A DNA stretch of 37,913 bases from Verrucomicrobiales bacterium (GTDB lineage: Bacteria; Verrucomicrobiota; Verrucomicrobiia; Limisphaerales; JAQGOV01). Under the pieces are notes generated by a model, which saw nothing but the letters and a program-made list of their open reading frames with translations, was not told where the DNA came from and did no database searches. Each line of letters begins with the position of its first letter. Positions within the stretch are counted from its first letter, which is position 1. The stretch lies in NCBI GenBank assembly GCA_028293425.1, contig JAQGOV010000630.1:1-37913 (forward strand). Reading direction: 5' to 3'. Position numbers and translations under genes: made by a program. This document shows positions 20,637-23,240 of this stretch, in pieces.

Positions 20637-20745
20637 GTCGGCGGGTGCTGTGTTTGTGCTTGGAATATAAGCTTTCTTGGAGCACCCTGTTATCAGAGTG
20701 CAAAGTAGCGTATTTAGCCCCGTGGATCTTTTTTGTGCCCTGAAC

Positions 20746-20749
20746 AGGA
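20746..20749 (+). promoter_or_regulatory. ribosome binding site deciding a TTG start
   Basis: AGGA lies five bases upstream of TTG 20755. No ATG occurs upstream of the lipobox Cys codon of this gene, so a non-ATG start is required; this site makes TTG 20755 the best choice over TTG 20677, GTG 20698 and GTG 20722. Confidence 0.5.
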
Positions 20750-20754
20750 CCTTT

Positions 20755-21387
20755 TTGTCCTTATTGGGACGTTGCCTTTTTCGGCCTTGGAACTTTTTCC
20801 TGCCATTGTTGATTGTCGTCGTTGCCGGTTGCAGTCCTGAGCCGATGGCAAATGGTCGACCCATCTCCGGGCAAAGCGCTGAAAAAGTGATGGTGCTCGA
20901 CTTGGAGGGACGAAGCATTGACCCCTTTGAAGGGACCAAGGATGCAAAAGTGCTGGTTTTTCTTTTTACTTCGACTGATTGCCCTATTTCGAATCGCTAC
21001 GCGCCCACAGTTGCAAGGATCTGGGAGGATTTTCACAACAAAGGCGTTCAGTTTTCACTGGTATATCCGCACAGCGATCTGACCGTGGAGGAAATCCGCA
21101 AGCACTTGAAAGACTTTGCTTATCCTTGTCAGGCGTTGCGTGATCCCAAGCATCTCCTGGTGAAGAAATGTCAGGCGAGAGTCACACCCGAAGCCGCTGT
21201 CTTTAACTCCAAGGGTGAGCTCGTTTACCACGGGCGGATCGATGACCGTTATGTCGACTTTGGCAAGGAACGCCCGGATGCGACCCGCCATGAGTTGGAG
21301 GAAGTGCTCAAGGCTGTTTTGGATGGGAAGGCTCCTGCCCAGAAAGCGGTTCGGCCGATTGGTTGTTACATACCCGAGTTGCCATGA
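20755..21387 (+). CDS. redoxin-domain lipoprotein
   Basis: About 210 residues from a TTG start. The N-terminus is a lipoprotein signal with lipobox VVAGC (Cys26). The mature part is a thioredoxin/AhpC-TSA-like fold with VLVFLFTSTDCPISNRYAPT: the active-site Cys76 is followed by P-I-S, so the second redox Cys of thioredoxin is replaced by Ser. The conserved cis-Pro region reads ARVTPEAAVFNSKGELVYHG, then RIDDRY. Such TDCPISNRY redoxins are common in Planctomycetes, Verrucomicrobia and Acidobacteria next to cytochrome/copper proteins. The next gene's ATG overlaps this stop (ATGA), so the pair is translationally coupled. A role in supplying copper or thiol chemistry to the partner is inferred only. 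Confidence 0.82.
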   Translation: MSLLGRCLFRPWNFFLPLLIVVVAGCSPEPMANGRPISGQSAEKVMVLDLEGRSIDPFEGTKDAKVLVFLFTSTDCPISNRYAPTVARIWEDFHNKGVQFSLVYPHSDLTVEEIRKHLKDFAYPCQALRDPKHLLVKKCQARVTPEAAVFNSKGELVYHGRIDDRYVDFGKERPDATRHELEEVLKAVLDGKAPAQKAVRPIGCYIPELP

Positions 21388-23240
21388 GCGAGAGGCAGGG
21401 GCAAGGACTTGGTTGGTCCATGCGAGCGGGAGCGGGTTTGCTGGTGCTCCTGGGCTTTTGCGAGCTTTCCTGCACGGTGAAGCCCAGGGAAGAAAAGTAC
21501 ACTCCCCGGCCTCCCGGCACCGTCACATTTTCCAAACACCTGGCGCCTATCGTTTTCGAGAACTGTTCGGGTTGCCACCGTCCAGGCCAGTCCGGGCCCT
21601 TTCCGCTTCTGACTTATTCTGATGCGAAGAAGCATGGAAAAGAGATTGCGGATGTCACAGGCAAGCGATACATGCCGCCTTGGCTGCCGGAATCGCAACC
21701 GGGAGAATTTCTCCACCAACGCGGGCTCTCGGTGGAACAGATTGGCTTCATCCATCAATGGTTCACGGACGGCATGCCGGAAGGTGCTACAGCCGACTTG
21801 CCCCCGGCTCCGAAGTGGAACGAGGAATGGCAGCTTGGCAAACCTGACCTGGTGGTGAAGCTGGAACAGCCTTACACCTTGCCCGCCGACGGCAAGGATG
21901 TTTACCGCAACCTGGTGATTCCGGTTCCGCTCAACACCCGCCGTTTTATTCAGGCATTGGAATTTCGTCCCGGCAGCCGCTCGGTCCATCACGTTTTCAT
22001 TCGAGTGGACCGGACACGCAACTCGCGCCGCCTTGATGAGCTGGATCCGGAGCCGGGTTTTGATGGCATGGATGCGCCGAAAACGGCTGAAAGCCCCAGC
22101 GGACAGTATTTGAGCTGGCAGCCGGGCAAGCAGGCAATCCGCTCCGCACCGGGCCTGGGCTGGGCACTTGAGCCAGGAGCCGATTTAGTACTACAATGCC
22201 ATCTCAAACCAAATGGCAAGCGGGAGCCAGTCCAGCCTATTGTGGCCTTCTATTTTACGGATCAGGCTCCCACGAACACTCCAGTCCAGATTCCTCTCAA
22301 TTCCTTTACGATCGATATTCCTGCCGGGGCGAAAGACTCGTTGGTTGAGGATTCCTACGTGCTGCCCGTGGATGCGGATATCATTGGCGTCCTCCCGCAT
22401 GCGCATTATCTCGGAAAAAGGCTGGAGGGCTCCGCGGTGCTGCCCAATGGGAAAACAGCTTGGCGGTTCCTGGTGCCGGATTGGGACTTCAACTGGCAAG
22501 GCGATTATCAATATGCAAAGCCCGTGCCGCTGCCAAAGGGCACGACCTTGAGGATGCGTTACACCTACGACAACTCGACGAACAATTTTCGGAATCCCAA
22601 CCAGCCACCGAAACGGGTGCAGTATGGTGTGAATACCACGGATGAAATGGGTGAACTATGGATCCAATTGTTGCCGCATACCAAAGAGGATTCTGCAACC
22701 CTCACCAGGGATTACAGCCACAAAGCGTTGCTCGATGTAATTGCTTTCAACGAATACCGCCTGCGCAATAATCCGCGGGAAGCAAAGGCTTTGAGCAATA
22801 TTGGGGCTGCCGAGATGGGACTGGGTAAAGTTCAGAATGCTTTCCAGCATTTTCGACAAGCTCTGCAACTGGACCCCCGGCTGGAAGATCCGCATTACTA
22901 TTTGGGGCTGATTTACCGGATGCAAAATAAACCTGTGGAAGCCCAGGCCGAATTTGAGACCACGCTCTCGATCAATCCCGACCACGGCAAGGCAAATGGG
23001 AATCTTGGGCTGCTCATGCTGGATCAAAAAAATATTACCCAGGCCGAAAAATATTTTCGAGAAGCGTTACGGGTGAACCCCAGTGACCCGATTGCGAACG
23101 ACAGTCTGGGAGTGATGCAGTTCAACCAGGGAAATTGGGAAGAAGCCCGTCGGCTTCTCGATGCCGCCCTGCGCGAAAACCCTGACGACCCGGAAGTGCA
23201 GCAGCATCTCCAAACGGTGCGCAAAGCTCTGGGGCTTTAA
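21384..23240 (+). CDS. cytochrome c - type-2 copper monooxygenase-like - TPR envelope protein
   Basis: A 618-residue protein. It begins with a signal sequence with Cys26 and Cys30 as possible but imperfect lipobox residues. A heme c site, CSGCH (61-65), sits in a short cytochrome domain. The middle matches the peptidylglycine/dopamine monooxygenase copper core: HH (202-203) in SVHHVFIRVD, His273 in LVLQCHLKPNG, H-A-H (339-341) in LPHAHYLG, and Met422 in TTDEMGE, i.e. both the CuH triad and the CuM His-His-Met set. From about 453 to the end are four TPR-type repeats. It likely acts in the periplasm or on the outer membrane. It is coupled to the redoxin gene. Substrate unknown. Confidence 0.85.
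   Translation: MSERQGQGLGWSMRAGAGLLVLLGFCELSCTVKPREEKYTPRPPGTVTFSKHLAPIVFENCSGCHRPGQSGPFPLLTYSDAKKHGKEIADVTGKRYMPPWLPESQPGEFLHQRGLSVEQIGFIHQWFTDGMPEGATADLPPAPKWNEEWQLGKPDLVVKLEQPYTLPADGKDVYRNLVIPVPLNTRRFIQALEFRPGSRSVHHVFIRVDRTRNSRRLDELDPEPGFDGMDAPKTAESPSGQYLSWQPGKQAIRSAPGLGWALEPGADLVLQCHLKPNGKREPVQPIVAFYFTDQAPTNTPVQIPLNSFTIDIPAGAKDSLVEDSYVLPVDADIIGVLPHAHYLGKRLEGSAVLPNGKTAWRFLVPDWDFNWQGDYQYAKPVPLPKGTTLRMRYTYDNSTNNFRNPNQPPKRVQYGVNTTDEMGELWIQLLPHTKEDSATLTRDYSHKALLDVIAFNEYRLRNNPREAKALSNIGAAEMGLGKVQNAFQHFRQALQLDPRLEDPHYYLGLIYRMQNKPVEAQAEFETTLSINPDHGKANGNLGLLMLDQKNITQAEKYFREALRVNPSDPIANDSLGVMQFNQGNWEEARRLLDAALRENPDDPEVQQHLQTVRKALGL

Follow-up and report, generated by a model that had tools for sequence, protein, structure and literature searches.

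Organization of the Locus

The window, the whole stretch of DNA analyzed here, comprises 37,913 nucleotides of a contig from a Verrucomicrobiales bacterium, a soil- or water-type organism. An open reading frame on the forward strand encodes a 618-residue protein in which an apparent export signal or anchor is followed by a heme c domain with a CxxCH motif, then by a copper core of two domains and finally by TPR repeats (Table 1). Translation of this frame placed His202, His203, His273, His339, His341 and Met422, together with the CSGCH motif, at exactly the positions given for them in a preliminary description of the same DNA. The hydrophobic N-terminal segment contains a helix in the AlphaFold2 model, the residues ahead of it are of low pLDDT, and Cys30 could, to judge by its sequence context, be a lipobox cysteine. 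The copper protein is probably exported; of 60 aligned relatives, 8 carry a Por_Secre_tail (T9SS) sorting domain, an indication that the protein works at the surface or after secretion.

Directly upstream lies the gene for a thioredoxin-like putative lipoprotein (hereafter redoxin), the length of which is counted from the first TTG, with a true start that may be further downstream. Its TGA stop codon overlaps the ATG of the copper-protein gene as ATGA (21384-21387), and the two proteins are therefore probably co-translated. Just upstream of the redoxin gene, on the same strand, the segment 19656-20636 (+) encodes a protein that resembles glutathione transferases (xi-class-like by eye); comparison of neighborhoods revealed no recurrence of this gene at the other loci.

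Table 1. Features of the redoxin and copper-protein genes (positions in the window; residue numbers are those of the encoded protein)
Feature	Position	Strand	Evidence
Thioredoxin-like putative lipoprotein (redoxin), 236 aa from first TTG	20677..21387	+	PF08534, 2e-7; profile; AlphaFold2; Foldseek
Redoxin Cys102 (DCPISN), predicted nucleophilic Cys	20980..20982	+	36/36 rows reaching the column; invariant in alignment A3
Redoxin Cys230 in C-terminal GCxI	21364..21366	+	37/38 rows; invariant in alignment A3
Putative heme c/dicopper monooxygenase/TPR protein, 618 aa	21384..23240	+	ORF; Pfam; alignment; profile; AlphaFold2; Foldseek/VIA
N-terminal signal or membrane/lipid anchor plus linker (1-44), predicted	21384..21515	+	predicted helix 19-28; hydrophobic sequence
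Heme c domain (45-135)	21516..21788	+	CxxCH; PF13442 Cytochrome_CBB3, 19.7 bits, below cut-off of 27
CSGCH heme attachment motif (61-65)	21564..21578	+	invariant, 87/87
Met97 in MPPW motif, candidate axial heme ligand	21672..21674	+	invariant, 87/87
PHM-like copper core (148-441)	21825..22706	+	PHM 2e-10, DBH 1e-4; VIA Z 20.3, 265 residues, PHM 1sdw
His202-His203, predicted CuH ligands (PHM H107, H108)	21987..21992	+	family alignment; profile alignment
Gln271 (PHM Q170) and His273, predicted third CuH ligand (PHM H172)	22194..22202	+	His 92/92; Gln 79/92
His339 and His341, predicted CuM ligands (PHM H242, H244)	22398..22406	+	92/92 each
WDFNWQ (367-372), near-invariant family signature	22482..22499	+	F369, W371 92/92
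DNSTNNFR (396-403)	22569..22592	+	D396, N397, N401 invariant, 92/92
Met422 in DEM motif, predicted CuM ligand (PHM M314)	22647..22649	+	90/90
TPR tail (about 453-615)	22740..23228	+	PF07719, 3.9e-27

Fold and Ligand Sites of the Copper Core

The core was searched alone against solved structures because a profile search with the whole protein was swamped by TPR matches. Apart from one row at chance level, the profile built from 59 cores matched peptidylglycine α-hydroxylating monooxygenase (PHM) and dopamine β-hydroxylase (DBH) and nothing else. The AlphaFold2 model, for which the input alignment held 60 sequences, had a pLDDT of 91.9, and PHM structures were its top Foldseek matches (3.2e-12). 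In the structural alignment with PHM that had been proposed as a check, VIA-align superposed model residues 152-444 on PHM 1sdw at 18% identity, and the match extended across the whole core. A search with the Cu2_monooxygen domains of Pfam (copper type II ascorbate-dependent monooxygenases), proposed alongside it, gave a divided result: PF03712 scored 16.7 bits with the whole protein and 18.5 bits with the core alone, against a cut-off of 23, and PF01082 did not match the window protein, while PF03712 was matched by 47 of 59 relatives (best value 5.6e-11) and PF01082 by 10 of 59. When the window's own genome was searched with PF03712, no match was obtained and the control was silent as well, so that this search carries no weight.

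For the family alignment (MAFFT), the genome collection supplied 80 named loci, and 92 homologous proteins were aligned in all. Each of the six proposed ligands pairs with its PHM counterpart in the profile alignment, as expected from the PHM/DBH ligand order claimed earlier, and all six proved fully conserved where the column is present (90/90 for H202, H203 and M422; 92/92 for H273, H339 and H341). The homologues were fetched by peptide patterns, one of which contains M422; copies in other genomes that were found by HMM, independently of any such pattern, also carry the ligands where their alignments are listed in full, and five such copies score strongly against the core profile. Across 23 representatives sharing <50% mutual identity, invariant residues occupy 19 of 297 core columns, with all six ligands included, an outcome with a probability of ∼3e-8 if invariant columns were placed at random. 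A chance occurrence of these His and Met residues is ruled out by their invariance. Cys272 and His432 were also considered as functional residues and were rejected, neither being conserved in the family.

Alignment with PHM further identified Tyr174 as the equivalent of PHM Y79 (Tyr in 71/92 homologues and Phe in 17/92). The WDFNWQ signature and the D396, N397 and N401 positions, invariant or nearly so, lie in the stretch that separates one half of the CuM site from the other. Invariance of both sites, together with equivalents of Q170 and Y79 that are mostly kept, is what would be expected, at the level of sequence, of a catalytic center. With the ligand sites in register and a two-domain β core fold predicted, the window protein is, on alignment and model, a member of the PHM/DBH superfamily.

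Comparison with individual members defines how far the likeness extends. The window family shares with PHM (1PHM, 1OPM, 1SDW) the entire core fold and the six ligands, but it adds the fused heme c domain, the TPR tail and the family-specific WDFNWQ and DNS...NP motifs. In addition, PHM residues R240, N316 and Y318, which we take to be the anchor for the peptide carboxylate, align to L337, E424 and W426 in columns that vary across the family. The PHM core has conserved disulfides, whereas the family alignment revealed none of this type, the sole core cysteine of the window protein being the non-conserved C272. Absence of the carboxylate anchor and the lack of a conserved core cysteine point to a superfamily member with a substrate other than that of PHM, and binding of a glycine-extended peptide in the PHM manner is improbable. 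DBH (4ZEL) has the same core, although its profile match was the weaker, and it too carries an extra domain ahead of the core, a DOMON domain that has the fold of the CDH heme-binding domain but not the heme ligands (PMC4846438). By contrast, the window protein has in front a heme c domain with CxxCH (residues 45-135), which is modeled as mostly helical and gave no Pfam match to DOMON, and its C-terminal part consists of TPRs in place of the DBH dimerization domain.

The Heme c Domain and the TPR Tail

Of the 92 aligned homologues, 87 cover the heme c region, and C61, C64, H65 and M97 show no variation among them; PF13442 was matched by 36 of 60 relatives. M97 would be the axial ligand coordinating the heme. 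Because a small heme c domain of this kind, candidate Met ligand included, is constantly present, it would naturally serve as electron donor instead of ascorbate. The suggestion that this domain is a built-in electron supply thus fits the constancy of the domain, which would be a putative source of electrons. A similar CxxCH domain fused to WD40-like repeats is encoded at two other loci of the window's genome (L012, G000:C46; L017, G000:C247).

The TPRs described as following the core are present, Pfam locating them at about residues 467-607, but are optional and lie outside the core enzyme: TPRs were matched in about half of 60 relatives, and their absence from the others rules them out as an essential part.

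The Redoxin Partner

The best profile matches of the redoxin were 2YWI (Geobacillus), 2CVB (Thermus) and 3U5R (Sinorhizobium), and the same three were retrieved by Foldseek with an AlphaFold2 model of pLDDT 92, the likeness in each case being a full-length profile and fold match. Features of the 2CVB/2YWI family were found throughout, namely the thioredoxin fold, the N-terminal active Cys, the TP(E) segment and the C-terminal GCxI Cys, the region of the last being included in the 2YWI alignment. Conserved in the redoxin family itself are C102, C230, a Y-x-G-R motif and the TP segment, which by analogy would provide the cis-Pro. The window redoxin has no CxxC motif; several Bacteroidota redoxins contain a CxxC of the CPIC or CIIC type. 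The CxxxC motif expected of an SCO copper chaperone is also absent from the window redoxin, C102-PIS-N106 having no second Cys at that spacing. Unlike the three solved proteins, the redoxin studied here is a putative lipoprotein encoded in overlap, or in fusion, with the putative copper enzyme.

Of 83 copies open to assessment, 40 have a redoxin gene as a same-strand neighbor or in fusion with the core (upstream in 30, downstream in 5 and fused in 5). In the five other core-bearing genomes of the phylum sample, where copies were found by HMM alone, a strong redoxin match was present beside the core or in the same chain in every case. Copies from the sampled Gemmatimonadota, and most of those from Acidobacteriota, are without a nearby redoxin. 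The redoxin is thus a common, not a universal, partner, and its absence from the vicinity of about half of the copies implies that it may be non-essential. The view of the copper protein as a self-contained enzyme is doubtful, given that a thioredoxin-like gene overlaps it here and that roughly every second copy has such a gene as a neighbor or in fusion.

Proposed Function and Alternative Explanations

The features originally noted in the window are real, and the interpretation placed on them is supported. The protein is probably a dicopper monooxygenase of the PHM/DBH superfamily that is exported, depends on O2 and has a fused heme c donor as well as a thiol-redox partner. This reading draws on homology, fold, the identity and invariance of the ligands, invariance of the heme motif, the gene overlap and the natural occurrence of redoxin fusions. 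In PHM and DBH, CuH is the electron-transfer site and CuM the site of O2 and substrate (PMC4846438, PMC6123673). By this scheme, CuH (H202, H203 and H273) would take single electrons from the heme c bound covalently within its own chain and hand them to CuM (H339, H341 and M422), where O2 would bind and a C-H bond of the substrate would be hydroxylated. Electron carriers of the periplasm or the cell surface would probably return the heme to its reduced form, in the role that ascorbate otherwise has. The redoxin, through Cys102 and Cys230, would most likely service the enzyme: it may keep thiols or copper reduced and loadable, help to load the metal, or remove peroxide from uncoupled turnover. 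The TPR tail may be an optional platform on which a partner or a substrate docks.

An unlikely alternative is that the dicopper core works as an oxidase, as a peroxide-forming center or as a peroxygenase, with heme c electrons reducing O2 at CuM and no defined substrate being hydroxylated, the redoxin then being a peroxidase or peroxide regulator. Such a role would be consistent with a redox-active thiol partner of redoxin/peroxiredoxin-like fold beside or fused to about half of the copies and with the lack of any consistent substrate gene nearby, but the invariant Met at CuM and the broad invariant signature (WDFNWQ, DN...N, DEM) suggest a real substrate pocket, and about half of the copies do without the redoxin. 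Less probable still is a non-enzymatic PHM-fold protein for copper binding, storage or sensing in which heme c acts as a redox switch. The several copies per genome, six in that of the window, could be accommodated by this explanation, as could the possible role of thioredoxin-like proteins as copper metallochaperones; against it, none of the ligands in the three-His or the two-His-one-Met site varies and the Q170 and Y79 equivalents are mostly kept, as for catalysis, and the window redoxin is missing the CxxxC of SCO. A true peptidylglycine (peptide-amidating) monooxygenase acting on C-terminal glycine, with the TPRs presenting the peptide, is highly improbable, for although PHM is the nearest solved relative and TPRs are frequent peptide binders, the presumed carboxylate anchor falls on variable positions and TPRs are absent from about half of the relatives.

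Enzymes of the PHM and DBH type are familiar chiefly from eukaryotes, where ascorbate drives them; in animals they make amidated hormones and noradrenaline. The route of single electrons to CuH and across to CuM is debated. The open-access literature searched yielded no description of the present architecture or of its bacterial family, in which a PHM/DBH core is combined with heme c in the same chain and with a thiol-redox partner; such absence is weak evidence. With the monooxygenase reading, a bacterial branch with heme c fused to the core would offer a spectroscopically visible donor for the question of the electron route, and a likely O2-dependent C-H hydroxylase would be added to several little-studied phyla. 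The recurrence of the redoxin makes the system accessible to experiment. The chances appear evenly balanced that the family represents a widespread bacterial PHM/DBH branch in which heme c replaces ascorbate, a dedicated thiol partner and the cytochrome form a chain to the non-coupled dicopper site, and a new class of extracellular substrate is hydroxylated.

Distribution and Genomic Neighborhoods

The 92 homologues are distributed over at least eight phyla, among them Verrucomicrobiota, Acidobacteriota, Planctomycetota, Gemmatimonadota, Bacteroidota and Armatimonadota. Pelagicoccus mobilis and Singulisphaera sp. GP187 are cultured relatives in which the gene is present. Within the phylum sample the core was present in 6 of 145 genomes, including that of the window, which contains six copies of the core; most sampled genomes of the phylum have none. 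Two of its paralogues (L006, G000:C167:19161-20909; L005, G000:C533:1862-3625) are single-chain fusions of redoxin, heme c and copper core, and both fall outside the main clade of the tree. Most Bacteroidota copies cluster as a clade (among L085, L088, L090, L092 and L094-L100).

In the neighborhoods of the fetched loci, no functional neighbor besides the redoxin was widely shared, those observed being lineage-specific, and no substrate-pathway gene was consistently near the copper gene. Proteins with FG-GAP/ASPIC-like repeats, recognized by eye, are encoded near the copper gene at six loci, mostly verrucomicrobial (L021, L030, L031, L033, L047 and L086). An M24-peptidase-like protein (prolidase/creatinase-like by eye) follows seven acidobacterial copies (L040-L043, L045, L067 and L093).
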